Assembly (NCBI RefSeq): GCF_003781945.1
Contig: NZ_RJJW01000004.1
Location: 152,824-216,823, forward strand
DNA: 64,000 nucleotides
DNA from: Halorubrum sp. CSM-61
GTDB taxonomy: Archaea; Halobacteriota; Halobacteria; Halobacteriales; Haloferacaceae
Direction of reading: 5' to 3'
A model generated the notes under the pieces. That model saw only the letters and a program-made list of their open reading frames with translations. It was not told the DNA's origin and did no database searches. Below, piece by piece: positions 33,398-59,856 of the stretch; position 1 is the stretch's first letter; the number at the start of each line of letters is the position of its first letter. A program made the translations under genes and the position numbers.

Positions 33398-33825
33398 CGG
33401 GAGTGGGTATATCGAGATGGTGGCGTGGTTGTTTATAAGTGGTCGAGTGGCGTTGCTGTCGGCTGTTTATAAGTCGTCGACGGCGTTACGGTGACGACCT
33501 CCAAAGCCCCAGCCGCTGTGGGCGGCGCACGCTCGTTGCGCTCCTCAGTCGCTCGTTTCACTCGCTCCCTGCGGTGCTTACGTCGCCTGCGCCGCCCACA
33601 GCGGCTGCCCCTTTGAGTCCCACCCGACCGCACAGCCTCACGCCTCCCCAGCCTCGTCGCTGGCGGCTATCGCCGCCAGCGACTCCCTCGCGCGTGCTGC
33701 TCGGCCGCGAGGCGGCCTCGCAGGCACGCGCCACTGCGTTGTAGCTTTAAAAGCGATCATCGGCGTCACTCACGGTTGCTTTTAAATATTGAAGCGCGGA
33801 CGCCGATCTGCAATACCCACTCCCG
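33398..33825 (+). repeat. Dispersed structured element, copy A
   Basis: This 428-base non-coding element has two TTTATAAG boxes (33432 and 33466) and the leader ACCTCCAAAGCCCCAG at 33497. A perfect 19-bp inverted repeat follows, AGCCGCTGTGGGCGGCGCA (33511-33529) with its complement (33588-33606), enclosing a 58-nt loop. A conserved block (CCCCTTTGAGTCCCACCCG, GCCTCACGCCTCCCCAGCC) follows, then an 11-bp hairpin at 33657-33682 and another at 33704-33725. The ends carry a 13-bp inverted repeat, CGGGAGTGGGTAT (33398-33410) and its complement (33813-33825). It lies between convergent genes. The rest of 33266-34032 (33266-33397 and 33826-34032) shows no credible gene. Confidence 0.85.
33466..33473 (+). 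promoter_or_regulatory. TATA box of element copy A
   Basis: TTTATAAG lies 31 bases before the conserved ACCTCC leader. The same spacing is seen before copy B's leaders, so transcription of the element from about 33495 is likely. Confidence 0.6.
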
Positions 33826-34032
33826 TTCTCGCTCACCGCTGTATCTGTATATATTGGGTGTTCAGAGCGTATCTCCTGCTGAGGATTTCAACAAAGGCCG
33901 ATCCCAGCAGCGCGAGCGGTGATTCCGTCGACAGCGGCGCGATCAGGGAGCCCACCGTAAGCGACCGCGCTGGAGCTGTCCGTTAGTGAGTTCGCAAAGA
34001 GAAGAGGGCGGAACGGTGTCGTCGGCGAGACG

Positions 34033-34566
34033 TTAGTGCTCGGCGGGCTCGTCGGGCGCGCGCATGTCGTCGATCCGGAGGATGAGGATGTTCGCGGTGT
34101 CGTCTTTGCCGTCGACGGTCCCGTCGATGACGAGCTTCGAGAGGGGGGTCGGCCCGACGGTGACGGAGTCGCCCTCGTGGAAGTCGCGGACGGAGCCCTG
34201 CACGTGGATCTCGGCGCGGCAGAGCTCGGGGTGGTGGACGCTGGAGAGGTCGATCCCGTCGACGTTGACCCCCGTCACTTCCTCCCCCTCGTGGTAGATG
34301 GGGACGTCCGCCGGCTCCTCCATGCGCTGGATGTCGAGCGCCTCGTACGCGTTCGAGGTGGGCTTGTACCCGCCCTTCGGGCCCGGTACGCCCTCGACCA
34401 ACTGGAGGGCCTTCAGGCTCTGCATCTGGTTCCGGATCGTCCCCGGGTTGCGGTCGACCTCCTCGGCGATCGCCTCGCCTTTGACGGCGTCCTCCTGTTC
34501 CCCGTACAGGTTGATGAGGGCCGAGAGGATGCTTTTCTGACTCGACGTGAGCTCGATCGATGACAT
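34033..34566 (-). CDS. HTH transcriptional regulator, winged helix, Rrf2-like
   Basis: This is a 177-residue regulator. The N-terminal helix-turn-helix (about residues 9-75) has GEAIAEEVDRNPGTIRNQMQ as recognition region, and the wing follows near GPKGGYKPT. The C-terminal half (about 85-170) is a beta-rich domain with a single cysteine (HPELCRAE), so no Fe-S cluster pattern is visible. In haloarchaea such genes are often called Rrf2 family; that label is uncertain. A CATTTAAGCGGG box lies about 25-35 bases before the ATG, so the transcript is probably leaderless. The target is unknown. Confidence 0.82.
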   Translation of the reverse strand: MSSIELTSSQKSILSALINLYGEQEDAVKGEAIAEEVDRNPGTIRNQMQSLKALQLVEGVPGPKGGYKPTSNAYEALDIQRMEEPADVPIYHEGEEVTGVNVDGIDLSSVHHPELCRAEIHVQGSVRDFHEGDSVTVGPTPLSKLVIDGTVDGKDDTANILILRIDDMRAPDEPAEH

Positions 34567-34633
34567 AGGCGCGAATAGATGGCCGGCCCGCTTAAATGCG
34601 ATGGAAGCCCGTTATAAATGATCGTGTGGTTTC

Positions 34634-34849
34634 TCAGGATCGCCGAAGCCGACGGAGTCGAACGTACGCGATCGGGCTGGAGAGCGCCACGACGACGCCG
34701 ACGCCGATCAGCGCGAGCCCGAGGTCGCCGACGAAGAAGGCGACGGCGGCACCGACGAGTCCGATCGCGGCGCCGGTGAACGCGACTGCGATCATGGCGC
34801 CGATCGGTTCGAGGTCGGCCGGAGCGAAGTCGCCGTCGGAGCCGCTCAT
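34634..34849 (-). CDS. Small two-helix membrane protein
   Basis: This 71-residue protein has an acidic N terminus (MSGSDGDFAPADLEP) and two hydrophobic segments, MIAVAFTGAAIGLVGAAVAF and LGLALIGVGVVVALSSPIAYV. A basic Arg-rich tail follows (RLRRLRRS), consistent with a cytoplasmic end. The upstream reading frame extends to 34990 without homology support. The function is unknown. It is a plausible short gene upstream of the regulator (67 bases) and divergent from the arginase gene. Confidence 0.68.
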   Translation of the reverse strand: MSGSDGDFAPADLEPIGAMIAVAFTGAAIGLVGAAVAFFVGDLGLALIGVGVVVALSSPIAYVRLRRLRRS

Positions 34850-34970
34850 ACCCGCCGTTGGAGGGGCGAGGTGAAAACCGTGTGCGATCCCCTCTCCGCG
34901 CGATCTTCTCCTCGGGCGGGCGTCGGGGGAGACCCCACCTTTCAAGCGCCGCCGGGGCGCTCTCTCGGAC

Positions 34971-35876
34971 ATGACCACCGTCAGGATCATCGGCGTGCCG
35001 ACCGACTACGGGGCGAACCGACGCGGCGTGGACATGGGACCGTCGGCCATCCGCTACGCCGGACTGGCCGACCAGCTCGCGGGAGCGGGCGTCGAGACGG
35101 TCGACGCGGGCGACCTCGCGGTCCCCCGCGCCGAGGAGCGCGACCCGGACGCGGAGCCTCCACGCGACGGGGACGCGAAGTTCCTCCGCGAGACGGCCGA
35201 CGTCTGCCGCCGGCTCGCGGACGAGGTCGGCGGGGCGCTCGCCGAGGGGGAAGTGCCGCTCGCGCTCGGCGGGGACCACTCGATCGCCATCGGCTCGCTC
35301 GCCGGGTCCGCGCGGGACGCGGCGATCGGCGCGGTGTGGTTCGACGCTCACGCCGACCTCAACACGCCCGCGACGACGCCCTCCGGGAACGTCCACGGGA
35401 TGCCGCTCGCGGCCGCGCTCGGGCTCGGCGAGTTCGCGGGGTCGGACTGGGCGACCGCCCCCGGGCTCGACCCGGAGAACGTCGCGCTCGTCGGGCTGCG
35501 CTCCGTGGACGACGCGGAGATCGAGGTGATCCGCGACCACGGGTTCGCCGCCTACACGATGTCGGACATCGACGAGCGCGGGATCACGGACGTGACGGAG
35601 GAGGCGATGGCCGAGGCGGCCGCCGGCGTCGACGGGGTCCACGTCAGCCTCGACCTCGACTGGCTCGACCCGAAGGAGGCGCCCGGCGTCGGCACCCCGG
35701 TCCGCGGAGGCGCCACCTACCGGGAGGCCCACAGCGCGATGGAGTCCGTCGCCGAGAGCGACGCCGTCCGGTCGATGGAGCTCGTCGAGGTGAACCCGAC
35801 GCTGGACCAGCACAACGAGACCGCGGAGCTCGCGACGGAGCTCGCCGCGAGCGCGTTCGGGAAGCGAGTGCTGTGA
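34971..35876 (+). CDS. rocF: Arginase
   Basis: Arginase hydrolyses arginine to ornithine and urea. The 301 residues carry manganese-ligand motifs LALGGDHSIAIGS, VWFDAHADLNTP and SLDLDWLDPKEAPGVGTPV. The pattern around NTPATTPSGNVHGMPLA is arginase-like rather than agmatinase-like. All expected Asp and His ligands are present. A CACCTTTCAAGC box lies about 30 bases before the ATG. An agmatinase activity cannot be excluded from sequence alone, although I think arginase is more likely. Confidence 0.93.
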   Translation: MTTVRIIGVPTDYGANRRGVDMGPSAIRYAGLADQLAGAGVETVDAGDLAVPRAEERDPDAEPPRDGDAKFLRETADVCRRLADEVGGALAEGEVPLALGGDHSIAIGSLAGSARDAAIGAVWFDAHADLNTPATTPSGNVHGMPLAAALGLGEFAGSDWATAPGLDPENVALVGLRSVDDAEIEVIRDHGFAAYTMSDIDERGITDVTEEAMAEAAAGVDGVHVSLDLDWLDPKEAPGVGTPVRGGATYREAHSAMESVAESDAVRSMELVEVNPTLDQHNETAELATELAASAFGKRVL

Positions 35877-35903
35877 GTCCGTGGCTTCGGTCGGGAGTCC
35901 CGA

Positions 35904-36200
35904 TTAGGGGCTTCGGTCCAGTTGGTCGACGACGCGCTGTAAGTCCGCCTCGCGCTCGATCTCGCGCTTGATCTCCTCGCGGCGGCGGACCGCCGCGGAG
36001 TCGGCGTCGTACGCGCGCACGAACTCGGCGCGGGTGTGCTCGTCGAACGCGTGCCGGATCGCGAAGTAGCCGTCCGGGACGATCGTGCCGCACACCTTGC
36101 ACTCGTGGCGCTGGTGGCCGTTCGTCTGGTGGACGATGGCCGACTCCACGTCGTCGAAGGCGGCGTCGCAGCCGTCGATTCCGCACGTCCAGCGGGGCAT
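35904..36200 (-). CDS. Small zinc-finger-like haloarchaeal protein
   Basis: This 98-residue protein begins MPRWTCGIDGCDAAFDDVES and contains two finger-like units: C-x4-C with histidines in VHQTNGHQRH, and CKVCGTIVPDGYFAIRHAFDEH. A charged helical tail rich in Arg and Glu follows (VRRREEIKREIEREADLQ). Metal binding through Cys and His is likely; nucleic-acid binding is an inference. It lies between the convergent arginase gene and the divergent PHP gene. I remember similar haloarchaeal proteins but not a function. Confidence 0.72.
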   Translation of the reverse strand: MPRWTCGIDGCDAAFDDVESAIVHQTNGHQRHECKVCGTIVPDGYFAIRHAFDEHTRAEFVRAYDADSAAVRRREEIKREIEREADLQRVVDQLDRSP

Positions 36201-36363
36201 GTCATCCCGTCCCCGCCCCGAGGGATTAACGGTTTCCCCCGGCGACCGCCGTTCGGGATCCGCCGTTCTCCTCCCGAGCGCGACCGGCGCACCTCCCGAG
36301 GCGACGCCACCGGACTCGCCGTCGAACGATACGCCTTTGCTCGGTGACGAAAAACGCCCATCC

Positions 36364-37155
36364 GTGACTGGATCGAGAACGCGTGTCGACGCCCACGTGA
36401 AGGTGCTCGGCGACGACGTCGTGGCCCTCGCGAAGGAGCGAGGGATCGACGCGCTCGTGTACGCCCCGCACTTCACCCGCCTGCCGACGATCCGGCAGCG
36501 CGCGGCCCGGTTCTCCGACGGCGACCTGACCGTGGTCCCCGCGCGCGAGGTGTTCACCGGCGACTGGGGGAACCGGCGGCACATCCTCGTTCTCGGGTTG
36601 GACGACCCCGTCCCCGACTACATCACCTTCGAAGCGGCGATGGCCGAGGCCGACCGACAGGACGCGGCCGTCTTGGCGCCCCATCCGGGGTTCGCGACCA
36701 TCTCGCTCACCCGACCGGAGATCGAGGCCCACGGCGCCCGGATCGACGCGGTGGAGACGTACAACACGAAACTTCTCCCGCACCAGAACGCCCGGACGCG
36801 CCGGATCGCCGAGGCCACAGACCAGCCGGGGTTCGGCTCGTCGTACGCCCACCTCCCCGGCACCGTCGGCGAGGCGTGGACGGAGTTCGACGGCGACTTC
36901 GACGGCGTCGACGCGGTCGTCGAGGCCTTCCGCGAGGCGCGGCCCCGAACCGTCGTCCACCGCGGCGGGGCCGCCCACCAGCTCCGCGGGCTCGTGGAGT
37001 TCGCCCACCTCGCGTACGAGAACACGTGGGAGAAGCTCGACCGGCAGTTCCTCTCGGGCGACGAGCCGACCCTCCCGAGCAACGTCGCCTACGAGGGGCG
37101 GTTCAACGACGTGAGCGTCTACTCCGGGACGCTCTCCGACTACCGGCCGAACTAG
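36364..37155 (+). CDS. PHP-domain metal-dependent hydrolase
   Basis: This 263-residue protein starts at GTG 36364. The N-terminal segment RVDAHVKVLGDDVVALAKER and APHFTRLPTIRQRA match the PHP phosphoesterase family, although the first metal ligand pair H-x-H appears as D-x-H (DAHV). Other metal-ligand candidates are APHPGFATIS and the C-terminal GSSYAHLPGTVG. Its substrate may be a histidinol-phosphate- or nucleotide-like phosphate; this is unproven. The upstream frame reaches 36085 without support. It runs opposite to the preceding zinc-finger gene. Confidence 0.78.
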   Translation: MTGSRTRVDAHVKVLGDDVVALAKERGIDALVYAPHFTRLPTIRQRAARFSDGDLTVVPAREVFTGDWGNRRHILVLGLDDPVPDYITFEAAMAEADRQDAAVLAPHPGFATISLTRPEIEAHGARIDAVETYNTKLLPHQNARTRRIAEATDQPGFGSSYAHLPGTVGEAWTEFDGDFDGVDAVVEAFREARPRTVVHRGGAAHQLRGLVEFAHLAYENTWEKLDRQFLSGDEPTLPSNVAYEGRFNDVSVYSGTLSDYRPN

Positions 37156-37198
37156 GTCGCGGCCGCGGGCTCGGCGTTTTCTCGTACTCTCTGCCCCG

Positions 37199-37702
37199 TC
37201 AGATCCCGAGCCCCGCCGCCGCCTCGGAGGCGGCCGCCGAGAGGTCGAGATCGAGAGTCACGACGTAAGTGTGGATCGCCCAGAAGACCGCGAGCTCCAG
37301 CGCCGTGACGATCACGGTGACCAGGTCCGCGTACTTGCTGCTCGTCGTCACGCCCGTCGGCATCCCGTACTCCGTGTCCGACAGCGGGTGGAACAGCGCG
37401 ATCCCGCGGCGGCTCCCGACCACGTCGAGGAGGTAGTGGGTCAACACGCCGATCCAGACGTACTGGAGGTTGCCGAACACGAGCGGGTACGCGAGGAAGA
37501 TCCCGAGCACCGGGAGACTGTGGAGCGTCTTCCGGTGGCGGCCGAAGGCGGTGTCGACGTCGGGGAACAGCGCCCCCAACACGATCGGAACGGTGATCTC
37601 GGCGACGGTCCGCGCGGTGGCCGTACTGAGGCTCGGCTCGATGACGAACCCGAGCCCGAGCGCGAGCAGTAAGGCGTTGAGAACGTGACCCCGTTTGTTC
37701 AT
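37199..37702 (-). CDS. Membrane metal-dependent hydrolase (YdjM-like)
   Basis: This 167-residue membrane protein has four or five hydrophobic segments and histidine/aspartate motifs typical of the YdjM/LexA-regulated membrane-hydrolase group: MNKRGHVLNALLLALG at the N terminus, GALFPDVDTAFGRHRKTLHS and VWIGVLTHYLLDVVGS. The D-x-D and histidine pattern suggests metal binding; the substrate is unknown. The upstream frame to 38089 is unsupported. Divergent from the aminotransferase gene, it shares a 142-base intergenic region with it. Confidence 0.82.
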   Translation of the reverse strand: MNKRGHVLNALLLALGLGFVIEPSLSTATARTVAEITVPIVLGALFPDVDTAFGRHRKTLHSLPVLGIFLAYPLVFGNLQYVWIGVLTHYLLDVVGSRRGIALFHPLSDTEYGMPTGVTTSSKYADLVTVIVTALELAVFWAIHTYVVTLDLDLSAAASEAAAGLGI

Positions 37703-37844
37703 ACCTCCGGGTGGCCGGGGGCGCAGGTGAAACCACCGGATCGGAGAAGGCGGGGGTAAGACCGACATAACGCACGCAGGCGTTCCGCCGACCGGGGGAA
37801 AGGCCAGCCGAAAGAGCCACGGCGCCCGACGCCGAGCGACGGGT

Positions 37845-38966
37845 ATGGAGTACGAGGAGCCGAAGTTCTTCCACGTGATGCAGTACGCGGCCGGGGCCGA
37901 CGGGGACGTCATCGACATGGTGAGCGGCAACCCCGACTGGGAGCCGCCGGCCGCGCTGCGGGAGGCGCTCCGCGAGTACGCCGACCTCCCTCCCGAGGAG
38001 TTCCAGTACCCGCCCAGCGAGGGGCTGGTGGAGCTCCGCGAGGCGATCGCCGAGCGCCGGAACGTCGACCCCGACCGCGTCGTCGTCACGAACGGGACCG
38101 GCGAGGCGAACTACCTCGCGATGGCGCGCGCGTTCGAGCGCGGCGCGGGCGACGAGGCGTTGTTGATGGACCCCGTCTACCCCTACTACCCCGGCAAGAC
38201 GGACATGCTCGGCGGCGAGTCGACGCTCGTCCCGACGGAGCGCGACGGGAGCCTCGACGTCGACGCGATCCGGGAGGCCGCGAGCGAGGACACCGCGCTC
38301 GTCGTCCTGAACACGCCGAACAACCCGACGGGAGCGATATACGACCTCGACGCGATCCGCGAGGTCGTCGAGATTGCGGAGGCGGTCGACGCCCTCGTGA
38401 TGGTCGACGAGGTGTACGACCACTTCGACCTGACCGGCGAGTTCGAGTCGGCACTGACGCTGGAGTCGGAGCGGGTGCTCGTCACCAGCGGGTTCTCGAA
38501 GTCGATGGCGATCACGGGGTTTCGGGTCGGGTACGGGATCTTCCCGGAGGTGCACGTCGGCGACGCCAAGACGCGGCACATGCTCGTGAACGTCGCCGGG
38601 GCGCGCCCCTCGCAGTACGCGGTCCACCACGCGCTCGCGGAGACGCCGCCGGAGTACTACGCGGAGGCCCGCGACTTACTCTCCGAGCGGGTCGACGCCT
38701 TCACCGACGCGCTCGACGCGGCCGGCGCCGAGTACACCCGTCCGGAGGGGGCGTTCTACGTGCTCGCGCGCTTCGACGGCTTCCCCGGCACGATGGCCAA
38801 CGTCAAGCGCCTGATCGACGAGGCCGGCGTTGCCGGGATGCCGGGCGAGGCGTTCGGCACCGCCCGCGAGGAGTGGATCCGGTTCGCCCTCGTGACGCCT
38901 CGGACCGTCGAGGCCGCGGAGCGCCTCGCCGACTACTTCGGCGACGATGCCCCAGACCCGCGATGA
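37845..38966 (+). CDS. Class I/II PLP-dependent aminotransferase
   Basis: This 373-residue fold-type I aminotransferase resembles aspartate/alanine aminotransferases. Visible motifs are VVTNGTGEANYLAMA (phosphate-binding start), VLNTPNNPTGAIYDL, VMVDEVYDHFD (aspartate contacting PLP) and SGFSKSMAITGFRVGY with the PLP lysine and the arginine. The substrate may be aspartate, alanine or an aromatic amino acid; I cannot say. The stop overlaps the start of the thioesterase gene (ATGA), indicating translational coupling. Confidence 0.93.
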   Translation: MEYEEPKFFHVMQYAAGADGDVIDMVSGNPDWEPPAALREALREYADLPPEEFQYPPSEGLVELREAIAERRNVDPDRVVVTNGTGEANYLAMARAFERGAGDEALLMDPVYPYYPGKTDMLGGESTLVPTERDGSLDVDAIREAASEDTALVVLNTPNNPTGAIYDLDAIREVVEIAEAVDALVMVDEVYDHFDLTGEFESALTLESERVLVTSGFSKSMAITGFRVGYGIFPEVHVGDAKTRHMLVNVAGARPSQYAVHHALAETPPEYYAEARDLLSERVDAFTDALDAAGAEYTRPEGAFYVLARFDGFPGTMANVKRLIDEAGVAGMPGEAFGTAREEWIRFALVTPRTVEAAERLADYFGDDAPDPR

Positions 38967-39499
38967 CCGGCGGCGAGGGCGACGAGGACGACGGGGGCGG
39001 CGGAAGCGACGGAGACGACGAAGGCGACATCCTCGACTACTTCAACCGGAGCCCGTACCGCGATCTGCTCGACATCGAGGTGACGGAGGCCGCCGACGGG
39101 CGCGCCGCGGGTCGACTACGGTTCGGCGAGAAGCACTCCTCGAACCGCCGGCGGGCGATCGCGCAGGGCGGCGTCGCCTTCTCGCTGGCCGACAGCGTCG
39201 CCGGCGCGGCCGCGACTGCGCTGGCCGGGTTCCCGACGCCCACGATCGACTTCCGGATCGACTACCTCGCGCCCGCGACCGACGACCTCGTCGCGACCGC
39301 CGAGGTAGTCAGAGAAGGCGGCGAGACCGCCGTCGTCGACGTGGAGGTCGTCCAGCCCGAGGGCGACGCAGATGAGTATTTAAACGAACCCCGGAACCGA
39401 GCCGACGCCGACGACAGGACGGTCGCCGTCGGCAGAGGCGTTTATAAGACGAGCGACCTCCCGGACGACGCGCCGTGGGACCTCGATCAGGGAAAGTAA
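38963..39499 (+). CDS. PaaI-like hotdog thioesterase
   Basis: This 178-residue hotdog-fold thioesterase resembles PaaI acyl-CoA thioesterases. The acidic N-terminal extension (about 22 residues rich in Asp and Gly) is followed by YFNRSPYRDLLDIEVTEA. The hotdog helix region is RAIAQGGVAFSLADSVAGAA and the strand is PTIDFRIDYLAPATDDLVA. The substrate is unknown. The gene begins inside the aminotransferase stop codon. Its stop codon is immediately followed by element copy B. Confidence 0.9.
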   Translation: MTGGEGDEDDGGGGSDGDDEGDILDYFNRSPYRDLLDIEVTEAADGRAAGRLRFGEKHSSNRRRAIAQGGVAFSLADSVAGAAATALAGFPTPTIDFRIDYLAPATDDLVATAEVVREGGETAVVDVEVVQPEGDADEYLNEPRNRADADDRTVAVGRGVYKTSDLPDDAPWDLDQGK

Positions 39500-39860
39500 G
39501 AACCGCGGTGGCGTGCGCCTGCGAGCGCCCATCGGGCGCGAGCAGCCCGCACGAGGGAGTCGGGCGTCCGGAGCGAAGCGGAGGGCGCCCGACGAGGCTG
39601 GGGAGGCGTGAGGCTGCGGTTGCGGAGCGGTCGGGTGGGACTCAAAGGGGCAGCCGCGAGGGCGAAGCACGCTGCAGCAAGCACCGCAGCGAGGGAGCGA
39701 TAGCGACTGAGCGAGGCGCGCAGCAAAGCGAGCGAGCCGTCGCGGCTGGGGCTTTGGAGGTGTTCACCGCCGATCTGCAGTCAACCGTTTATAAATGAGC
39801 GGCTGGGGCTTTGGAGGTGTTCGCCGTGGATCCGTCAGTAACCGCTTATAAGCAATCGTT
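39500..39860 (-). repeat. Dispersed structured element, copy B (minus strand)
   Basis: Read on the minus strand, the element has two successive promoter-plus-leader units. The first has GCTTATAAGC (39843-39852) and a leader at 39801-39825; the second has TTTATAAA (39788-39795) and the leader at 39740-39768. A stem with arms AGCCGCGA/TCGCGGCT (39740-39747, 39652-39659) encloses 80 nt. The conserved CCCCTTTGAGTCCCACCCG block, an imperfect hairpin at 39562-39594 and the hairpin GCGCCC-GATGGGCGC follow. It abuts the stop codon of the thioesterase gene and is convergent with the FAD reductase gene. Confidence 0.82.
39788..39795 (-). promoter_or_regulatory. TATA box of element copy B
   Basis: On the minus strand TTTATAAA lies about 30 bases before the conserved leader of copy B. 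A second box, GCTTATAAGC, serves the duplicated leader further upstream. Confidence 0.55.
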
Positions 39861-39880
39861 TAAACCGTCTCAAACCACCT

Positions 39881-40525
39881 CTAGCCGAAGTTTTCGACCT
39901 TCGCGGCGTCGGCGTCGCCGCCGGCGGCCTCGACCGCGGCCTCGGCGTCGGCCACCAGATCGGCGAAGCCGTACACGAAGACGGTCTCGCCCTCGCTCCC
40001 CGTCAGCGCCTCGGCGACCGCGTCGTCGAGGTTCTCGTCCGCGTCGAGCAGATACACGGCCGCTCCGCGCTCCTCCAGCGCGTCCAGCCGGTCCGCGTGC
40101 GACACGTCGTCGTCGCGGTAGACGACCGCGGCCTCGGCGCCGTCGTCGAGCGCGCGCTCCGCGATGGCGACCGCCGGGCCGACGCCGGGGCCGCCCGCGA
40201 TCACGACCGCCCGCGGCTCGCCGTCGTAGTGCTGGTCGCCGAACGGCCCGGAGAGGGTCATCTCCGTGCCGGCCTCGGCGTCGGCGAGGAACGCGGAGAA
40301 CTCGCCGCCCTCCTCGGGGTCGATGCCGACCGTCACCTCGAAGGTGTCGCCGACGGTCGGCGACGAGAGGGTGTAGAAGCGCGCGACCGACTCGCCGTCG
40401 ATCTCGGTGCCGAGCTTGACGAACTGCCCGGGCTCGGCGTCGAACCCGTCGGGCGCGTCGAACCGGAGGGCGTACGTGTCGCGGCCGACCGTCTCGACCG
40501 AGCTGACCGTCGCTGTCGTGTCCAT
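39881..40525 (-). CDS. FAD/NAD-binding ferredoxin-reductase-like protein
   Basis: This 214-residue protein has the FAD and NAD(P) domains of the ferredoxin-NADP reductase superfamily. The flavin region is GQFVKLGTEIDGESVARFYT, with the R-x-Y-S/T motif as RFYT, and the NAD region contains GGPGVGPAVAIAERAL. No iron-sulfur motif is seen, so it is a simple reductase unit. The electron acceptor is unknown. The long open frame reaches 41038, but the ATG at 40525 is the start that fits the fold. Confidence 0.85.
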   Translation of the reverse strand: MDTTATVSSVETVGRDTYALRFDAPDGFDAEPGQFVKLGTEIDGESVARFYTLSSPTVGDTFEVTVGIDPEEGGEFSAFLADAEAGTEMTLSGPFGDQHYDGEPRAVVIAGGPGVGPAVAIAERALDDGAEAAVVYRDDDVSHADRLDALEERGAAVYLLDADENLDDAVAEALTGSEGETVFVYGFADLVADAEAAVEAAGGDADAAKVENFG

Positions 40526-40928
40526 GACCACGATCCGACCGGGAGACACAAACGTGTTCCCGTCGGCGTCGGTGCTGCCCGTGTCGAAACCGGCGGACCC
40601 TCGGCGATCGGATTCGAGCCGAACGCGGGCGTCGGATCGGGCGCGCCCGCAGTCCGGCCTGCACCCGGACAACAGGCTCGCCCGAGCCCGAGCCCGGGAC
40701 CGGATCCGAGCGTCGCCGTTATCGGTTCGACGTTCGTCGAAATTGTCGACGACGATATGGGTCGATCGTGAGAGATTCGAAAAACGTTCGTCCACTATAC
40801 GTGATATATATCCGTACTCAATCGCCGGTAGCGACAATATTCGCGAAAAACACAATGAACGTTCAGAAATGGATCGGTAGCTCCTTCCAGAAGTCTTTTG
40901 ATGAGTCCGGCGAAAGCCCCCGTATAGC
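40526..40928. other. Intergenic region before korA (no gene seen)
   Basis: About 400 bases lie between the divergent FAD reductase and korA genes. Reading both strands I see no credible gene. The last 130 bases are AT-rich (GATATATATCC near 40802 and TCTTTTGATG near 40895), suitable for korA promoters; the second is at the leaderless distance from the korA ATG. The first 250 bases are GC-rich without recognisable repeats. Confidence 0.6.
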
Positions 40929-47490: not shown

Positions 47491-48052
47491 CCGTTTATAA
47501 GTCGGATTTGGCGTTGCTGTCGGCTGTTTATACGTGATCGACGACGCGCTGAACACCTCCAAAGCCCCAGTCGCCAGCGGCTTTGCCGCCGGCTGCCCGT
47601 GGCGCGTGGCGCCTCGCTGCCGCTCGCTTATATGTGACTGCTAACAGCGGATCGACGACGAGGACCTCCAAAGCCCCAGCCGCGAGGCGGGCGCACGCTC
47701 GCTGCGCGCTTCAGTCGCTCGCGCTGCTCGCTCCTTGCAGTGCTTACATCGCCTGCGCCCGCCTCGCGGCTGTCCCTTTGAGTCCCGCCCCGCACGGTAC
47801 CGCAGCCTCACACCTCCCCAGCCTCGCGGTTCGCGCTCTTCGAGCGCTCACCGCGTCCAGCGAGGGACCGAAGGTCCCTCTGGCAGCCGGCGCGTAGCGC
47901 CGGCGACCTCGCGCGGCGCTCCTCGCGGCCGCCTTCGGCGGCCACTCGGAGGCGCGCGCCACCGCATCGTTCTTTATAAGGGACCGTCGCTGGCGCTCAC
48001 GATCGTTTAAATACTGGATCGTTACTGTCGATCTGCAACACCTACTCCCACG
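47491..48052 (+). repeat. Dispersed structured element, copy C
   Basis: It starts right after the kinase stop codon with CCGTTTATAAG. A truncated leader (ACACCTCCAAAGCCCCAG near 47553) is followed by a second complete one (ACCTCCAAAGCCCCAGCCG near 47664). The arm AGCCGCGAGGCGGGCGCA (47678-47695) pairs perfectly with its complement (47754-47771), enclosing exactly 58 nt. The conserved block at 47772-47824 follows, then hairpins at 47862-47880, 47886-47904 and 47927-47943 and a nested hairpin at 47825-47855. A 24-base upstream block, TGGCGTTGCTGTCGGCTG plus TTTATA, is shared with copy A. The remaining bases up to 48144 show no gene. Confidence 0.83.
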
Positions 48053-51411: not shown

Positions 51412-51473
51412 GCCGCGGGGGAGCTCGCGGACCGCCACAAGAGGTTTACTCGTCGCGAGAGCAGGTCCCACCG

Positions 51474-52801: not shown

Positions 52802-52873
52802 TCCGCCGAGGGCGCGGGAAGTTCTCGCCTCCGCCCCCGGAGCGCTTATTCTCGTGCGACCGTCAGGGCCGGT

Positions 52874-53530
52874 ATGGCTCCGACGCTCGTCGCCGCCGCC
52901 GTCGGCGCGTTGCTGGCGGCTGCCCTGTTGGGCGCGGCGTTCGACCGGCGTTCGGTCGCGGTCGTCGTCGCGGCCGCGGTCGCCCCCGATCTCGACGCGG
53001 TCGCGAGCCTCGTCGTGCCGGGCGCGACGAACGCGCTTCTCCACACCCTCTGGCTCCCGCTGGTGGCGGCGGGCGCGCTCTACTGGGACACCGTCGCGGC
53101 CGATAAGTCCCGGTTCCGCGCCCGGTTCGGATGGCGCGGCGCGCGGGTCGCGTGGGTCGCGCTCGCGGCGTTCCTCGTCGCCGGCATCGGGACGGACCTG
53201 TTCGGCGCTGCGGGGGCGAACCTGCTGTATCCCGTCCACGACGCCTACTACCGGATCGACGGACGGCTCGTGCTCTCGACACAGGAGGGGATCGTCCAGA
53301 CGTTCGTCGCGCTCGGCGCGGACGGGCCCGGGACCCTCCCGCTGGAGACGGTCGGGACGACCGCCTCGCACGCGATCCCGACGTTCGCGAACCCCGACGG
53401 GCGGCCGGGACTCACGCTCGGGGGCGACCGCGAACTGTCGCTCGTCCGGAGCGGGTGGCAGCTCGTCGTCGTCGCGGCCGCGGTCGCGACGCTCGCGGTC
53501 CGGTTCGGGCGGCGAGAGGTGACCGAGTAA
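52874..53530 (+). CDS. Membrane protein, metal-dependent-hydrolase-like paralogue 1
   Basis: This 218-residue membrane protein has a first hydrophobic hairpin (VAAAVGALLAAALLGAAF) and the acidic motif VAVVVAAAVAPDLDAVASLV near residues 28-47. The soluble middle segment contains DAYYRIDGRLVLSTQEGIVQ. A C-terminal helix ends it. The D-x-D pattern and layout are like the following gene and similar to the YdjM-like gene at 37.2 kb. The stop overlaps the next ATG by one base, so the pair is coupled. The function is unknown. Confidence 0.75.
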   Translation: MAPTLVAAAVGALLAAALLGAAFDRRSVAVVVAAAVAPDLDAVASLVVPGATNALLHTLWLPLVAAGALYWDTVAADKSRFRARFGWRGARVAWVALAAFLVAGIGTDLFGAAGANLLYPVHDAYYRIDGRLVLSTQEGIVQTFVALGADGPGTLPLETVGTTASHAIPTFANPDGRPGLTLGGDRELSLVRSGWQLVVVAAAVATLAVRFGRREVTE

Positions 53531-54210
53531 TGCCCTCGACCGTCGTCCACTCCGGGTTCGCGCTGTTGCTCGCGGTCGCGCTGCTCGGCGACTACTACGA
53601 CCGCCGGGCGCTCGCGGCCCTGCTCGTCGTGTTAGTGCTCCCCGAGGCCGACAGCTTCCTCGGGCCGATCATGCCCGGCGCCCACCGATCGGTCGGGCAC
53701 AACCTCGTCTTTCCCGCGGTCGGCGCGCTGCTCCTGTACTACGACACCCGCGTTCGGGACCGGTCGCTGGTCCGCGACCGGCTCTCCGACCGATGGGTCG
53801 CGGTCGCGTGGGTGGCGATCTTCGTGCACGTCTTCGCGCACGTCGCGCTCGACTGGACCCACCTCGACGGGGTGAACCTCCTCTGGCCGCTTCGGGACGA
53901 GTTCTTCGCGCTCGACGGCGAGATCCTGCTCTCGACCGCAGACGGGTTCGTGCAGACCTTCGTCGACGTGCGGGTCGACCCGGAGACGGGCGCGCGGAGC
54001 GTCGACGCCGGAACGACGGGATCGACCGAGACGGTCCACGTCAACAACCCGGTCGAGCCGCGGGACCCGGATATCGTCACCGAGGAGCCGGTAGACCGGC
54101 GCTTCCCGATCGCTAACGGCGGCTGGCGGCTCTACCTGATCGGGGTGGGTCTCTTCGCGCTCGTCGCGAGGCGGTTTCAGGGATCGGGGGCGGATGTCGA
54201 CGTGGAGTGA
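53530..54210 (+). CDS. Membrane protein, metal-dependent-hydrolase-like paralogue 2
   Basis: This 226-residue membrane protein is homologous to the preceding gene. N-terminal helices surround VVHSGFALLLAVALLG and VVLVLPEADSFLGPIM. A histidine-rich region AHRSVGHNLVFPAVGALLLY and HVFAHVALDWTHLDG suggests a metal site. Like its partner it has the LDGEILLSTADGFVQTFVDV segment. The arrangement suggests a tandem duplication followed by divergence. The gene ends just before the lower-GC island. Confidence 0.78.
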   Translation: MPSTVVHSGFALLLAVALLGDYYDRRALAALLVVLVLPEADSFLGPIMPGAHRSVGHNLVFPAVGALLLYYDTRVRDRSLVRDRLSDRWVAVAWVAIFVHVFAHVALDWTHLDGVNLLWPLRDEFFALDGEILLSTADGFVQTFVDVRVDPETGARSVDAGTTGSTETVHVNNPVEPRDPDIVTEEPVDRRFPIANGGWRLYLIGVGLFALVARRFQGSGADVDVE

Positions 54211-54498
54211 CTACGGGGAACCTCGTTCCAGTCGCCTCGTTATCGTCTTCTCGGCGCCAGAGTGGTGAAGAGGAAGCAGTTCTCCGCGCGTTGGCCCTCG
54301 ATCGGAGAGAGGGTGTCAGTCACCTCGTTCATGTGGCTGTTAGGCCGACGATCGGAGAAGGAACGCAATCGTCGTCGAAAACCACTCCATCACGTATCAT
54401 TTCAGCTATGACTTTCGTTGGAGTATATATGCGAAATCGTGTATATTCCGGATGGTGTGGGGATACGCTTATTTGAGGATGTTATCTACAATTAATAA
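54211..54498. other. Start of lower-GC island, no gene seen
   Basis: These 288 bases have visibly lower GC than the left flank, and no supported open frame is found. AT-rich motifs near 54420-54498 (TTGGAGTATATATGCG, CAATTAATAAATG) could act as promoters of the following small gene. Confidence 0.55.
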
Positions 54499-54717
54499 AT
54501 GAGTGACATCGAAGAAGCAGTTCTTGTCGCTGTTGGTAACACTGTCTCCAAGAAAGCGATAGAGTGGGTACAGAGCCGCGGCCCAGATTTCTCTGAGACA
54601 GACTGGAAGCAGACAGCAGGACCGGTCCTAAGACAAGTCCGTGCTTCCCACGAGCAGTTTAGAACTGGATATCAGGATAAGAATGTCAATCGGAATGACT
54701 TACAACCGATCGCATGA
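54499..54717 (+). CDS. Small hypothetical protein in island
   Basis: This 72-residue protein begins MSDIEEAVLVAVGNTVSKKA and has no cysteines or membrane segment. It is preceded by CAATTAATAA, a possible TATA-like box immediately before the ATG, so the true start could differ. Codon use is AT-richer than in the flanking genes, in keeping with horizontal transfer. No family is recognised. The small size makes expression uncertain. Confidence 0.55.
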   Translation: MSDIEEAVLVAVGNTVSKKAIEWVQSRGPDFSETDWKQTAGPVLRQVRASHEQFRTGYQDKNVNRNDLQPIA

Positions 54718-54735
54718 CGGCGCAGAGCAGCACGG

Positions 54736-55485
54736 TCAAAGACCGTAGAGATCCTGAAGATCTTCGTGTTCTGGCAGGAGTTCTTTTTCGAGCAGGAAGT
54801 TTCGGTATCTCTCATTCTGTTGTTTACGCCTTTCCTCTACATCTTGGATATGCGCTGTTGCTTGTTTCGCCTCGTTTACTTCATCACAAAAGGTGTCGCG
54901 CATTTCTATCATCTGATCGATATTATGCTCTATGACAGCTTGGTACTGCTGGGGGTGCTGTGCAGTTTTCAGCCATTCGTGCGTTTTACCGTACGCTTTT
55001 ATCTCGTGGTCCATCATTATCGCGTACGTTTCAGGCGGCCCCCCGGAGCTAGCGAACTGCACCACGTGCAAGGCCTCGTGGTAGAGGAGAATTCGCCAAT
55101 AGACCTTTTCGAGAATAGTATTTTCTCCCAGCTGAGGGTCCGGACACTGGACGTAGACCTCGGTTGAGGAGTTGGTCCACGCTTGGAGATTGGAGGTTTT
55201 CATCTCTTGGTGTGGGTGCCTGTATTTCCACTTGATCGTCACACCTCGCATCAGGTTCCGACGGGGAAGCTGCGGAAGGAGGTCGCTCCACGCGGCTCTC
55301 GCCCTGTGAACGAACGGTGGTTCCTCGCTGGTTGCCTTGTACCCCTCGGTGACGGGATCGCAGGTGGTCGTCGGAACGGACTCAGTACTCCGACTGTCGT
55401 CGAGTACCCGATCCGCCGGCTCGTCGACCGCGCGGTCACCACCTTCGAGGACATCCGTGCGCTCCGCCTCTTTGTTGCCGCTCAT
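54736..55485 (-). CDS. Putative HExxH metallopeptidase of the island
   Basis: This 249-residue protein has an acidic N terminus, a central domain and a charged helical C terminus. Residues 136-140 read HEALH (codons 55080-55066) within LLYHEALHVVQFASSGG, a zincin-like HExxH motif. A downstream acidic residue in MMDHEIKAYGKT, 21 residues later, could be the third ligand. The pattern recalls DUF4157-type HE..HVVQ proteins; this is only similarity in a short segment. It starts two bases after the stop of the 615-residue gene and is probably cotranscribed. The substrate is unknown. Confidence 0.68.
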   Translation of the reverse strand: MSGNKEAERTDVLEGGDRAVDEPADRVLDDSRSTESVPTTTCDPVTEGYKATSEEPPFVHRARAAWSDLLPQLPRRNLMRGVTIKWKYRHPHQEMKTSNLQAWTNSSTEVYVQCPDPQLGENTILEKVYWRILLYHEALHVVQFASSGGPPETYAIMMDHEIKAYGKTHEWLKTAQHPQQYQAVIEHNIDQMIEMRDTFCDEVNEAKQATAHIQDVEERRKQQNERYRNFLLEKELLPEHEDLQDLYGL

Positions 55486-55487
55486 CG

Positions 55488-57335
55488 CTAGTCCGACCCT
55501 TCCTTATCTCCGGCCTCCTCGCGCTGTTGCGGGTGCGGGTGGTTCGACAGGCGACTCACGAGATCTGTGCGTTCCTCGTCGTTGTCGCGGACCGCCGAGT
55601 TAGCGATCTCGTCCAACTCCGCTTTGGCCCGGCTGCCCGCGACCTCCACCTCCCGCCGCTCAACCTCGAGCCCTTGTAACTGCTCCGCGTACTCGTCCAA
55701 TGCGGTGCTCGTACCCAACAACGATTCCACCATAACACCATCAGTCCGCATGGAGTTTTTCGTCGCCGACATGATGATACCCGGCACCCAGATCTCGGTT
55801 CCAGTAATTGGGTCGCTGTACGATGAGGTCTTCTCGGAGCGTACCCGGTGATACCTGTTGTCCTCGTCTATCTCACGTTCCTCGATGAAGTCGTCGTGCA
55901 GGTTCCCCTCGTGGTCGAGAATACTGCCAAGCGAGTCATGAATGTCTGTCCGCACTCGGTCACGCTGGTCCGTTTTCACGTAGGTTTCCAGGAGTGAGTC
56001 GAGTTCCGGCAAGGTAACTTCGTCACGAGATTCGGTAAAGCCGTTGAAGAAGGCGACGCGCACATCCACCAGGCTTGAGATGGTGATGAACTCCTGGTTC
56101 ATCTGCCGAAACACGAAGTTCAGGGTGCGGCTGAGATTGATGTTCTCGATCTTGCGTTCGGTGGACCTCTCTTCCTCTTCGATTTCCCGTGATTCGTAGC
56201 TCGTGTCCACTTCGACCTCGCGCTTTGCCGACGCCTTCTGAGCGTGTTTGTCGGTCGCAGTCGTCGAATTCTTCGCAAACTCCTCGCGTGCGGAATTCGT
56301 CCCGCCTTTCACACCAGCGTCCATGTTCGCGGAACCCCACCCCCAGCTCGCGTTGGCCTCTGCGTTCGAGTGATATTTGAAGCTCTTTTCGTAGTCCTCT
56401 TTACTGGATTGTTCGTTCTCAATCGTCCGTTCGAAATCAGTGGCACTCTCTTCAGTGAAGGAATCGAGGATGCTGGACGCCTCTGTTCGTTCTTTTTCTG
56501 ATTTTCGGAACGTCCTGATCGAGATCGTCGTCCGCTCGCCGGGAAGCAGGCTGAACGTCTGAATGACTTTTCCGGCGCCGTACGAGCCCAGATAGGACGC
56601 GAGCCGGTAGGTCTCGACGAGCAGAAGCGACGGTTCGACTTCGGTAGTCCTATCGATGGTTCGGGGGCTTATCGTTCCGTACATCGAACTGTAGAAGGCC
56701 AACTCCTTCCCCATTTTTTTCGTTTCTACTATTTCTTGGGCACTGAGTGACTGCAACGCTTCACTCACGGGGCGATCGGTCTCGAGACTCAATGGTGACT
56801 TTTCGGAGAAGCGGAGTTTTCCCGATCTGACCCGTGCGTTCGGGAGGATGTGCTTGTCGGCAAACCCGCTTTTCATGGACCGTTTGACTTGCGCTTCGAT
56901 CTCCTCGTCGCTCATCTGAGACACGTCGATACGGAGAGGCTGGACTGTCCCATCTTCGCCACCCGGAAGGGACGGTCCACCGGGAAACCTCGGGTCGTCC
57001 GGATTTATCGGCTTCCCGGGAAACCTTGGATCCTCCGGTGGTTCAGGGTCGGGTTCGTCCGGGGGCTCGGGATCGGGTTCGTCCGGAGGTTCAGGATCCG
57101 GTTCATCTGGGGGTTCGGGGTCCTCGTCGTCTGGGGGCCCAGAGTTATCGTCGTCCGGTGGCACAGGGGCCGGTTCGGGACGCCCCCAAGCAGCGGGGGA
57201 GAATAGATCTTCATCGTACTCGAGCTCGATGAAGTTCTTCCCGAAATAGATTGCCGGCTGTGGGATGTCGTAGCTGAGTATCGGTGCTCTTCCACCCGGT
57301 TCCAGCTGAATCAGCGGTTCGTTGTTATTCGACAT
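55488..57335 (-). CDS. 615-residue island protein with proline/acid repeats and coiled coil
   Basis: A short N-terminal region (residues 1-50) is followed by a Pro/Asp/Glu-rich segment with repeats of PEPPDEPD (about 50-103) and a Pro/Gly linker. A large conserved-looking domain (about 190-480) includes LLPGERTTISIRTFRKSEKE, ASWGWGSANMDAGVKGG and LNFVFRQMNQEFITISSLVD. A charged coiled-coil-like C terminus follows (about 545-582). There is no signal peptide and no membrane segment. I have seen this middle-domain pattern in bacterial proteins of unknown role. Upstream, an AT-rich TATTAAAATAAAT box at 57343-57355 serves the start. Confidence 0.75.
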   Translation of the reverse strand: MSNNNEPLIQLEPGGRAPILSYDIPQPAIYFGKNFIELEYDEDLFSPAAWGRPEPAPVPPDDDNSGPPDDEDPEPPDEPDPEPPDEPDPEPPDEPDPEPPEDPRFPGKPINPDDPRFPGGPSLPGGEDGTVQPLRIDVSQMSDEEIEAQVKRSMKSGFADKHILPNARVRSGKLRFSEKSPLSLETDRPVSEALQSLSAQEIVETKKMGKELAFYSSMYGTISPRTIDRTTEVEPSLLLVETYRLASYLGSYGAGKVIQTFSLLPGERTTISIRTFRKSEKERTEASSILDSFTEESATDFERTIENEQSSKEDYEKSFKYHSNAEANASWGWGSANMDAGVKGGTNSAREEFAKNSTTATDKHAQKASAKREVEVDTSYESREIEEEERSTERKIENINLSRTLNFVFRQMNQEFITISSLVDVRVAFFNGFTESRDEVTLPELDSLLETYVKTDQRDRVRTDIHDSLGSILDHEGNLHDDFIEEREIDEDNRYHRVRSEKTSSYSDPITGTEIWVPGIIMSATKNSMRTDGVMVESLLGTSTALDEYAEQLQGLEVERREVEVAGSRAKAELDEIANSAVRDNDEERTDLVSRLSNHPHPQQREEAGDKEGSD

Positions 57336-57651
57336 CTATTTGTATTTATTTTAATACAGCATAAACATTATCTCGATATTATCGACAGTACCGATACGAA
57401 ACCTGTTGTGAACTGGTTATTGTATGTATAGTTCGTAGCCGCTGCTTACCCCGGCTGATCGCCCATCACGTTCCGGACTGTTCGAGGATCTAATAGTGGT
57501 CGCTCTGGAGTACCACGAAGGACGATTCCGAATCTGCTAGAGCGGAAAGATCTGTATCTAAACAAGTTCGAACTAAGCGAGTAGATTGTACAGGTTTGCC
57601 CTCCTACAGTCCCACAGAAAGCTTATAACATCCGATTGTTGATGAATTATA
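57336..57651. other. AT-rich intergenic region in island
   Basis: These 316 bases are AT-rich and lie between divergent genes. They hold likely promoters: TATTAAAATAAAT for the minus-strand gene (near 57343-57355) and GCTTATAACA for the plus-strand gene (near 57619). No supported gene or repeat is seen. Confidence 0.6.
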
Positions 57652-58469
57652 ATGAATCGGAGGAAACTACTTGCTACGGCAGGATCTGGGCTACTTGCTG
57701 GGATTGCAGGATGTGGTTCTGACAGCGGGGATCCAACGGATACGAATCCGCCGGGAGAGAAATCAGAAATTCAACTGAAACCACCGCAGGCAGACTTACC
57801 AGACGGTTGGGAGTTGAAAACCCCTGATACAGAGCCTCATGTACTACTAGAGGATTCCAGCTATGGGCTCGACTACACGGCAATCGGACACAATAGGCGG
57901 TACGAAGATATGGAACTCCGAGAGCGAGTCCGAGAAGAATTATTTGGCCGGTTCGATAGGCCTCTTGTCGTCGGTTTTGCCTCCCACGTCAAGCTCGAAG
58001 TGCTTGGTGGTAGTGTGACTGAGTCAATCGTAGTTCAGGCAACAGACAAGATCCAAAATAAGGCTGAATCAATATTTCAGACAAAAATAGAAGAATTCGG
58101 GCTTCAGGACATCTCGAAAGACGGAACTTACCAACACCAAGGAAGCCGTTCACCGAGTGAATTTCAAAAATTCACAGGAACTATCCTGTAGAGTCTGTCG
58201 AAATTGAGGATGTGGATATACCAAACGTTGAGGAAGAGAGCTTCACATTAGAGTCTGGACAGCTCGATGTTACGGGGCTTCTTAGTACTCATCGCCAAGA
58301 TAGCGCCATTTTGATCACGGGTGGAGTGTTCCCGAGTGAGAACTATATTCGTTCAAAGAACTGGGACATTACGGGTGGTGTTCATCTGGACTTGACAGTA
58401 GATCTGGGACTAAATTCGAATATACACCGGTCGGATATCGTGAATTTCGCTCAGAACGTCCACGTCTAA
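57652..58469 (+). pseudogene. Frameshifted Tat-type lipoprotein gene
   Basis: The N-terminal part (179 residues, ending at TAG 58189) begins MNRRKLLATAGSGLLAGIAGC. This is a twin-arginine signal followed by a lipobox ending in Cys, so it should be an exported lipoprotein. A second frame (58182-58469) continues with YPVESVEIEDVDIPNVEE and encodes the rest. The sequence near 58177-58184 reads GGAACTATCC; one T restored after GGAACT would join FTGT to YPVES. It therefore looks like one gene of about 270 residues broken by a single-base deletion. No family is recognised. Confidence 0.78.
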
Positions 58470-58583
58470 CCGCTAATCTTCGCGCCTACACAGTACCACG
58501 GGTTTGTCTGGATGCGATTCTCTTGTTTGGCGTAGAGAAGGATGCTTCTCTCGTTTAGCAACCCTCGTTATGGCGGAGAAATC

Positions 58584-58600
58584 GGAGTGGACTCGCGGGG
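58584..58600. repeat. 17-bp direct repeat of tRNA-Ala 3' end, att-like
   Basis: GGAGTGGACTCGCGGGG at 58584-58600 is identical to 58663-58679, which covers the 3' end of the tRNA-Ala gene. Such repeats are typical attachment-site copies. The 62 bases between them hold an 8-bp inverted repeat, GGTCCCGT and ACGGGACC. Confidence 0.6.
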
Positions 58601-58662
58601 GTCCCGTGAGCGCAGCGAACGGGACCAAGCGAGGGAACGACTGAACGAGCGAAGCGAGTGAA

Positions 58663-58679
58663 GGAGTGGACTCGCGGGG
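58663..58679. repeat. 17-bp direct repeat, copy in tRNA-Ala
   Basis: This copy overlaps the last 13 bases of the tRNA gene (58667-58679). Together with the copy at 58584 it marks a probable integration site. No integrase gene is found in the window. Confidence 0.6.
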
Positions 58680-58738
58680 ATTTGAACCCCGGGCCTTCCC
58701 CGTGCCAGGGGGATGATCTACCACTGATCTACGAGCCC
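58667..58738 (-). tRNA. tRNA-Ala (anticodon GGC)
   Basis: Folded by eye on the minus strand: acceptor stem GGGCTCG/CGAGTCC with a G3-U70 pair (the alanine identity element), D arm GATC...GATC, anticodon stem TCCCC/GGGGA with loop CTGGCAC (anticodon GGC), T stem CGGGG/CCCCG with loop TTCAAAT, and discriminator A. Its 72 bases have no encoded CCA and no intron. A TTAATATATCC box (58765-58775) lies about 27-37 bases upstream of the 5' end. Confidence 0.95.
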
Positions 58739-58764
58739 TCGTACGCATCCATTCGTTCCCCGCT

Positions 58765-58775
58765 GGATATATTAA
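58765..58775 (-). promoter_or_regulatory. TATA box of tRNA-Ala
   Basis: On the minus strand TTAATATATCC lies 27-37 bases before the tRNA 5' end, a normal archaeal TATA position. Confidence 0.65.
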
Positions 58776-58820
58776 GGCCTTCGACTCGGGGACACCGCCG
58801 ACACCGACTCCCACACGCGC

Positions 58821-59402
58821 TCAGATCCGCGCGGAATCGACGTACACGTCGAGGTCGACGTCGCGCGTCGAGTCCTCGAGGTCGCGCACGGCGCGCTCGA
58901 CGACGCGCTCGGCCTCGCCCCTTATGAGGGGAATCGCCTTCTTCAGCACCCAGTCGAACGAGACGAGGGCGGGGAGATCGATCGCGTCGGAGCTCGCCGA
59001 GCCGGGATCGAACTCGACTTCGAGCGCGACCTCGCACGGGTCGTCGGTCGGGTCTCCTCGGGTGTCGGCGTCTGTGTCGCCGTCGGCGTCTGCGCCGTCT
59101 GGATCTCCGCCCGCCTCCGCCGGCGTCACTCGCCAACACCCGCCGGCGTCGATGTCCTTCGTGATCTCCCAGTCGATCCGCTCGGGCGGCTCGACGCCGG
59201 TGACCTCCGAGTGTGCGGTGTACGAAATCTTCCACCACGCGAACCGAAGCGCGTAGCGGGTTCCCGGCCCGCCTTCCCCTTCGAGGGTCCGGACCTCTCG
59301 CAGGTACTCCGAGTAGTCGGCGTACCGCGGGAAGTCGAGCAGGAACGCGTACACGTCTTCCGGGTCGGCGTACACCTCCGTGCTCACGACGAGTTCGTCC
59401 AC
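58821..59402 (-). CDS. SRPBCC / START-fold protein (RatA-like)
   Basis: This 193-residue protein starts MDELVVSTEVYADPEDVYAF and has the SRPBCC pattern (FPRYADYSEYLREVRTLEG, then hydrophobic strand FAWWKISYTAHSEV). It probably has a hydrophobic ligand pocket as in coenzyme-Q-binding COQ10/RatA relatives. A low-complexity Asp/Gly/Thr-rich insertion around residues 98-118 interrupts the fold. The C terminus is charged. The role is unknown; lipid or quinone binding is possible. It is transcribed away from the ABC exporter gene, with element copy D between. Confidence 0.82.
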   Translation of the reverse strand: MDELVVSTEVYADPEDVYAFLLDFPRYADYSEYLREVRTLEGEGGPGTRYALRFAWWKISYTAHSEVTGVEPPERIDWEITKDIDAGGCWRVTPAEAGGDPDGADADGDTDADTRGDPTDDPCEVALEVEFDPGSASSDAIDLPALVSFDWVLKKAIPLIRGEAERVVERAVRDLEDSTRDVDLDVYVDSARI

Positions 59403-59856
59403 GGAGGTGAATTCGGGTGGCCCCTATTAAGCAGTCCGCCGATCGGATGTGGAGATGGATGTTTCTGAGACAGTCATTTGATCGCTGGTGAACACCTCCA
59501 AAGCCCCAGCCGTTCTCGGCTCCCACAGCTCGCTGCGCTCCTCAGTCGCTCGCGTTGCTCACTCCTTGCGGTGCTTGCGTCGCTGGGGTTCGCCGAGAAC
59601 GGCTGCCCCTTTGAGTCCCACCCGACCGCAACCGCAGCCTCACGCCTCCCCAGCCTCGCCGCGGCCGCCAGAGGCGGCCGCGGGCTCCCTCGCACGCGCT
59701 CCTCGCGGTCGCCACTGGCGACCGCTCGGAGGCGCGCGCCGACCGCACGGCATTGATAAGCGATCGACGCTCTGGCTGCGCTCGCCCGCTCGCTCGGGAC
59801 CCGGAACGGGCCGCCGAAGCCGTCGGATACATGGGCTTCGCCGCGCTCGTACGCCC
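59403..59856. other. Intergenic region holding element copy D
   Basis: These 454 bases lie between the SRPBCC gene and the ABC exporter. Bases 59490-59752 are copy D of the structured element. The first 87 bases and the last 104 show no gene. The ABC gene start is preceded by CGCTCGTACGCCC without a clear TATA box. Confidence 0.6.
59490..59752 (+). repeat. Dispersed structured element, copy D
   Basis: The leader AACACCTCCAAAGCCCCAG (59491-59509) precedes the arm AGCCGTTCTCGGC (59508-59520), which pairs with GCCGAGAACGGCT (59592-59604). CCCA/TGGG (59522-59525, 59584-59587) extends the stem, leaving exactly 58 nt between the inner arms. The conserved block CTGCCCCTTTGAGTCCCACC (59603-59622) follows, then an 11-bp hairpin (59659-59669, 59673-59683) and a 10-bp hairpin (59705-59714, 59716-59725). 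Unlike the other copies, no clear TTTATAAG box is seen upstream; CATTTGATCG near 59475 is the nearest candidate. Confidence 0.83.

Follow-up and report, generated by a model that had tools for sequence, protein, structure and literature searches.

Four similar hairpin-bearing elements, here called copies A to D, lie within 64,000 nucleotides of Halorubrum sp. CSM-61 (contig NZ_RJJW01000004.1, positions 152,824 to 216,823 of the forward strand; this whole stretch is referred to as the window). What kind of element are they, which of their strands folds, and how did they come to be present in several copies? An earlier sequence-only reading had described them as a structured non-coding element in four copies, belonging to no family that it recognized. 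We find that the hairpins are an unannotated family of folded repeats, ~130 nt per copy, present in most haloarchaeal genera sampled. On balance, these are probably non-autonomous mobile repeats, dispersed and specific to haloarchaea, each built on a hairpin that folds in a strand-specific way.

Size and distribution of the family

The four copies are present where that reading had placed them, and the blocks they share exceed chance by far. In the window, CCCCTTTGAGTCCC matched four times with up to two mismatches (0.30 expected) and the leader six times with up to three (0.00 expected); there are six leader matches rather than four because copies B and C each hold a second, tandem leader. 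Four exact matches of the end block correspond to the four copies, with two more at two mismatches (1.56 expected). A covariance model was trained on 59 copies, of which 41 came from other genera and 18 from the window's own genome. It recovered all four copies (E 1e-20 to 1e-25) and gave matches widely in the same genome and order. The core hairpins lie at 33498–33625 in copy A (match on the plus strand, 102.7 bits, E 2.5e-21), 39633–39760 in copy B (minus strand, 101.9 bits, E 3.6e-21), 47665–47790 in copy C (plus strand, 100.0 bits, E 9.8e-21), and 59495–59623 in copy D (plus strand, 122.1 bits, E 1.1e-25).

The number four turned out to be far too low. At least 150 matches to the model (E 1.6e-6 or better) were found in the window's own genome, making this a dispersed family that extends across the class. 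The leader occurs 119 times and the end block 133 times in this genome, and among 52 genomes of the genus leader copies range from 0 (three genomes) to 130. A 17-base signature, CCCCTTTSAGTCCCRCC, was present in 247 of 391 genomes of the class and in 61 of 86 genera; the reversed-pattern control gave 0. When 196 genomes from across the phylum were searched, the model matched 29, every one a member of the window's own order; four listed genomes of that order had no match under the stricter filters of this search. Among the 80 listed of at least 120 matching stretches, all named carriers were haloarchaeal (e.g., Haloarcula, Natrinema, Haladaptatus, Halorussus, and Natronococcus).

Consistent with the earlier impression that no known family was involved, Rfam 15 gave no match at the gathering score to family copies in the window and at eight loci. 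The sole Rfam match of the window is a tRNA gene (58667–58738, minus strand). A literature search using sequence blocks, haloarchaeal repeats, and structured RNA candidates found no description of the element, although subscription papers and supplements lay outside its scope and a prior description is possible. Three papers containing one of the sequence blocks concerned other organisms; the accessible parts of the main text of PMC2864571 and of PMC3733652 contain no haloarchaeal name.

Covariation and the folded strand

Throughout the family, the core is one imperfect hairpin of ~95 nt with an invariant layout: a GAAAG/CTTTC-type clamp, a 4-nt C-rich internal loop, a variable, perfectly paired stem, a conserved internal-loop motif (TCGCTGCG / GTGCTTGCGTCG), and a variable tip. 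The comparisons used 100 of the 133 end-block matches of the window's genome ("own" copies) and 142 copies from other genera, from which 80 and 70 cores, respectively, were extracted. Of these 150 cores, 110 were parsed (40 were dropped because a motif was missing or the loop was long), 99 passed an arm-length filter, and 93 were distinct. Arm lengths are rigid, at 22–23 nt in 106 and 22–24 nt in 102 of the 110 parsed cores.

We aligned the 93 distinct cores by anchoring on the motifs alone, making no use of pairing, and compared an average-product-corrected G statistic with that of 100 alignments simulated without structure on the maximum-likelihood tree. Fourteen column pairs exceeded the largest simulated value (86.2). 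For 13 of them, 85% or more of the sequences have a standard pair, and these 13 fall on nested diagonals of a single hairpin; the fourteenth (27–71) is paired in 53% only and separates subtypes. One clamp pair changes from C-G in the own genome to G-C in other genera (52 + 41 of 93 sequences, 100% paired, E 0.07). With the reservation that the alignment is short, the null simple, and conversion among the copies possible, the changing sequence with kept pairing that had been proposed for these stems is real and strongly significant. To take it as the sign of a selected RNA goes beyond this evidence: selection on single-stranded DNA, or conversion between hairpin arms or between copies, could also explain the kept pairing.

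Which strand folds was judged from mismatches, energies, and internal loops, with plus denoting the orientation chosen in the sequence-only reading and minus its opposite. Mismatches in the outer stem P2 were counted in copies that had 7 or more of 11 positions paired (60 of the 100 own and 95 of the 142 others); on the plus strand they were A.C in 55 cases and G.T in 16 (own copies, 16 versus 5; others, 39 versus 11). Since A.C on plus is G.T on minus, the minus strand is the one with wobbles. The excess is smaller when distinct position-types are counted (own, 6 versus 5; others, 14 versus 7), and a neighbouring control hairpin leans the same way (6 versus 2); part of the asymmetry may therefore reflect mutational bias or a longer folded strand. 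Among distinct cores, the minus strand folds more stably in 64 of 70 from other genera and 72 of 75 from the own genome, a difference to which the base composition of the conserved loops contributes. On this strand, G.A and A.A oppositions are frequent in the internal loops. For copy A, the fold energy is −67.1 kcal/mol on plus (z −7.55) versus −76.7 on minus (z −8.27), values reached by 0 of 200 shuffles on either strand. The mismatch types, the fold energies, and the G.A-rich internal loops lead us, with moderate confidence, to place the fold on the strand opposite the one originally chosen, i.e., the minus strand of the window for copies A, C, and D and the plus strand for copy B.

The stem arms quoted for the four window copies all pair perfectly: 33511–33529/33588–33606 in A, 39747–39740/39659–39652 in B, 47678–47695/47754–47771 in C, and 59508–59520/59592–59604 in D. 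A loop of exactly 58 nt, said to be common to A, C, and D, holds for A and C but not for D, where the same arms enclose 71 nt; in B they enclose 80. The basal helix CTC-AAAG/CTTTGAG exists in the folds, but with a bulged base (CTC-C-AAAG/CTTTGAG).

Several variants of the core were seen. Seven cores (L115, L117, L123, L126, L172, L174, and L199) carry the usual outer clamp around a different interior, ~GGTCGCTGAGCGACATATC...GATAGGGGTCGCTCAGACGAC, as though one inner domain had been swapped for another. One own copy, L054, has the hairpin interior inverted between its arms. Nested two-hairpin modules inside cores (e.g., L018, L020, L024, L032, L034, L037, L118, L137, L156, and L170) each combine a pair of perfect hairpins, the arms of which are unrelated, with linkers that are conserved (TGATGA/TCATCA, TGGC, TGCC). 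There are 16 such modules in the 100 own and 22 in the 142 other copies, with chained modules counted repeatedly.

Spread, insertion sites, and surroundings

Own copies at different loci can be near-identical (99.4% over 501 nt, 99.8% over 475, and 99.1% over 445), the identity ending at or just beyond ATCGATAGCGGGAGT...ACTCCCGCTATCGAT. In copy A, a unit bounded by terminal inverted repeats (TIRs) and assigned to neither strand spans 33398–33825, with CGGGAGTGGGTAT at 33398–33410 and its reverse complement ATACCCACTCCCG at 33813–33825; a match to the TIR pattern at G000:C4:186217 corresponds to window position 33394. Near-identical copies elsewhere stop at the same TIR. All 29 matches to the exact TIR pattern lie 70–324 nt from a core. 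Given near-identical TIR-ended copies and copy numbers that differ widely within the genus, the family behaves like a repeat that is mobile or was so until recently: it spreads or has recently spread. At the copy A site, 28 of 29 loci of relatives (loci were taken from 30 of the 52 genomes; that of L078 stops short of the right flank) have no match to the element; in a further genome, G003, the match to the left gene continues as far as query position 881, which falls in the element's left part.

A number of observations weigh against such mobility. TIRs are found on part of the copies only (29 exact matches versus at least 150 cores). The copy A intergenic region has a 75% match in genome G045, versions or remnants of the locus C element are present in G014 and G028 and, inverted, in G051, and leader remnants of locus D are present in G017 and G028 (none in G014 or G004). 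As sites are thus partly shared among relatives, many copies may be old. The sites compared showed neither a target duplication nor a precise point of insertion, and no mobilizing enzyme was found: Y1 gene number does not vary with copy number, and RVT_1 is absent from all 52 genus genomes. We conclude that insertion at these sites is likely and that many copies are not young.

Candidate origins were considered individually. The Y1 transposase family (PF01797) is represented in 41 of the 52 genus genomes, and the 11 genomes without it hold 0, 4, 5, 8, 9, 21, 32, 41, 44, 46, and 71 leader copies. A simple dependence on Y1/RAYT proteins was rejected, as Y1 count and copy number are not correlated (rho 0.13, p 0.35), although a lost or distant enzyme is possible. 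Retro-copying by RVT_1 or as a retroelement like short interspersed nuclear elements was rejected on the absence of RVT_1 (the control matched 3 of 14 genomes). A TnpB guide (omega) RNA at the tnpB 3′ end was also rejected: TnpB genes do not adjoin cores but lie at least 903 nt from the nearest one (2.9 kb or more for 15 of the remaining 16, and one on a core-less contig). No parent transposon with the same TIR was found, 29 of 29 exact matches being in core-bearing units (exact pattern only). For a virus or plasmid element, likewise rejected, there were five stretches in viral contigs, no phage record, and four plasmid records at 60%–80% identity.

Close pairs of copies (<400 nt apart) face end block to end block in 12 of 12 cases, and 11 of these are 36–48 nt apart, like inverted doublets. 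On a Halobaculum plasmid (L061, 3001–3476), unrelated sequence of ~20 nt or more separates the right-hand parts of two facing copies. Within 420 nt upstream of the 100 own copies there is one leader in 72, two in 20, three in 6, and four in 2. Some own copies contain tandem ~57-nt units made of a TATA-like motif and a leader, e.g., at window 39743–39818, where the second leader of copy B (39800–39818, minus strand) lies 57 nt from the first (39743–39761). In copy C, the second leader (47555–47573, plus strand) is followed by an inserted two-hairpin stretch. The extent that copy D shares with many own copies is 59487–59770 (no strand), comprising the core and right-hand hairpins; in BLAST comparisons with own loci, most alignments begin at 59480–59494 and stop at 59740–59785. 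To the right of the copy A core, a slot hairpin (TCGCTGGCGG...CCGCCAGCGA, 33657–33682, no strand) has arms that vary among copies, with 44 distinct versions in the own genome.

The elements are non-coding and intergenic, as originally described: with genes predicted by a simple home-made gene caller, 0 of 63 distinct own copies and 1 of 137 copies of other genera lie inside a predicted gene. Convergent genes flank 37 of 61 placed copies in the own genome versus 78 of 301 intergenic regions; elsewhere, in other genera, contexts resemble the background (20 of 121 placed copies versus 114 of 602). Beside tandem genes there is no orientation preference (9 versus 8 and 25 versus 36). No neighbour protein family recurs, the largest cluster among 728 predicted neighbours covering 5 of 120 loci. 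TATA-like motifs occupy fixed places in own copies, on the left in 50 of 96 distinct copies, on the right in 46 of 77, and on both sides in 27, with a chance of ~0.004 per stretch. In copy A, the left place holds TTTATAA (33466–33472), 37 nt left of AAAG; its core is palindromic and its direction therefore ambiguous. The left-place motif was found in 0 of 137 copies of other genera. A promoter as a family-wide feature was rejected, TATA-like motifs being confined to the own genome.

Competing explanations and known systems

If the family is a mobile repeat, a trans-acting protein, of the host or of the element, would recognize the hairpin as a single strand, most likely the one opposite to that of the sequence-only reading, and would copy or move the repeat. 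The stems may vary freely in sequence because shape, not sequence, would be read. Some of the copies in the window's genus would have been packaged into the ~430–500 bp TIR unit and would have gained TATA-like motifs on both sides. A bolder proposal, which we put forward tentatively, is that the core represents a new abundant class of structured archaeal RNA, made from the minus strand and carried on a selfish element that multiplies to >100 copies without a reverse transcriptase or recognized transposase, its interior domain being exchangeable between genera while the outer clamp is kept.

Should spreading be a mere means of gene-copy multiplication, the family would instead be a new trans-acting or ribonucleoprotein-forming non-coding RNA, transcribed from the opposite strand and amplified. 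The RNA-like wobble asymmetry, the G.A-rich internal loops, the conservation of loop motif and arm lengths across genera, and the TATA-like motifs at fixed places to either side of own copies all speak for this. We nevertheless consider it rather unlikely, since the left-place motif is missing from other genera, the gene context is not fixed, the exact leader is absent from three genus genomes, and A.C and G.T differ little as distinct position-types (20 versus 12) with the control hairpin behaving alike. It is improbable that pairing is kept mainly by DNA processes, such as arm-to-arm correction of long palindromes during replication or gene conversion between copies, with no selection on a folded strand. 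Such processes would account for nested modules that pair perfectly despite unrelated arms, for a slot hairpin that swaps its whole sequence yet still pairs, for the inverted interior of L054, and for orthologous C copies that differ by symmetric changes, including one added base pair; strand-symmetric conversion, however, does not predict the internal-loop motif, rigid arm lengths over 61 genera, or the strand bias. The excess of copies between convergent genes in the own genome brings to mind a chromosome-architecture or transcription-stop element at convergent gene ends, yet the near-background share in other genera, the drop to 0–1 copies in related genomes, and the indifference to orientation beside tandem genes make this very improbable.

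A mobile family of folded repeats would make available a route to the enzyme that moves or binds it. It is found in most sampled genera of an archaeal class, in up to ~150 copies, and has no Rfam entry; the covariation data are unusually strong, and the range from 0 to 130 copies in one genus permits association tests. Were it transcribed, it would rank with the most numerous of the structured RNA families that archaea are known to have; if it acts as DNA, shape-based recognition of long single-strand hairpins would be widespread in archaea without Y1 transposases.

By analogy, the family probably works like REPINs or like the SMR/PATE repeats of Haloquadratum, although we assign it to neither. 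With Rfam structured RNAs it shares a conserved covarying fold but gives no match at the gathering score. The TIR-bounded, non-coding unit of ~430–500 bp in part of the copies resembles miniature inverted-repeat transposable elements; unlike these, it has no parent transposon at the exact TIR and no target duplication was seen. REPINs and REP-BIME repeats of bacteria are mobilized by RAYT. Like them, the family consists of dispersed intergenic palindromes in high and variable copy number, with close inverted pairs in some genera; here, in contrast, the number of Y1/RAYT-type genes is unlinked to copy number. REP-type repeats are also given as 20–40 bp in the accessible part of PMC3733652, whereas the core described here measures ~95–130 nt and has several covarying helices.

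The SMRs (HqIRS42, 43, and 55) and PATEs of Haloquadratum walsbyi, compared by description only, are, like the family, short, non-coding, and without a transposase, according to the accessible part of PMC3119063, on which the following statements about them rest. Same-type SMR copies are commonly >95% identical (PMC3119063), but family copies are not. PATEs have no TIRs, and their palindromes also occur in IS605-type elements (PMC3119063). Some family copies carry a TIR, and no link to TnpB genes was found when judged by gene distance. SMRs have TIRs unlike those of known transposons and cause no target duplication (PMC3119063); part of the family copies carry a TIR, and no duplication was seen, at insertion points that were not pinned down. 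SMR-A inserts within PATE palindromes (PMC3119063), an arrangement that the two-hairpin modules inside the cores resemble.

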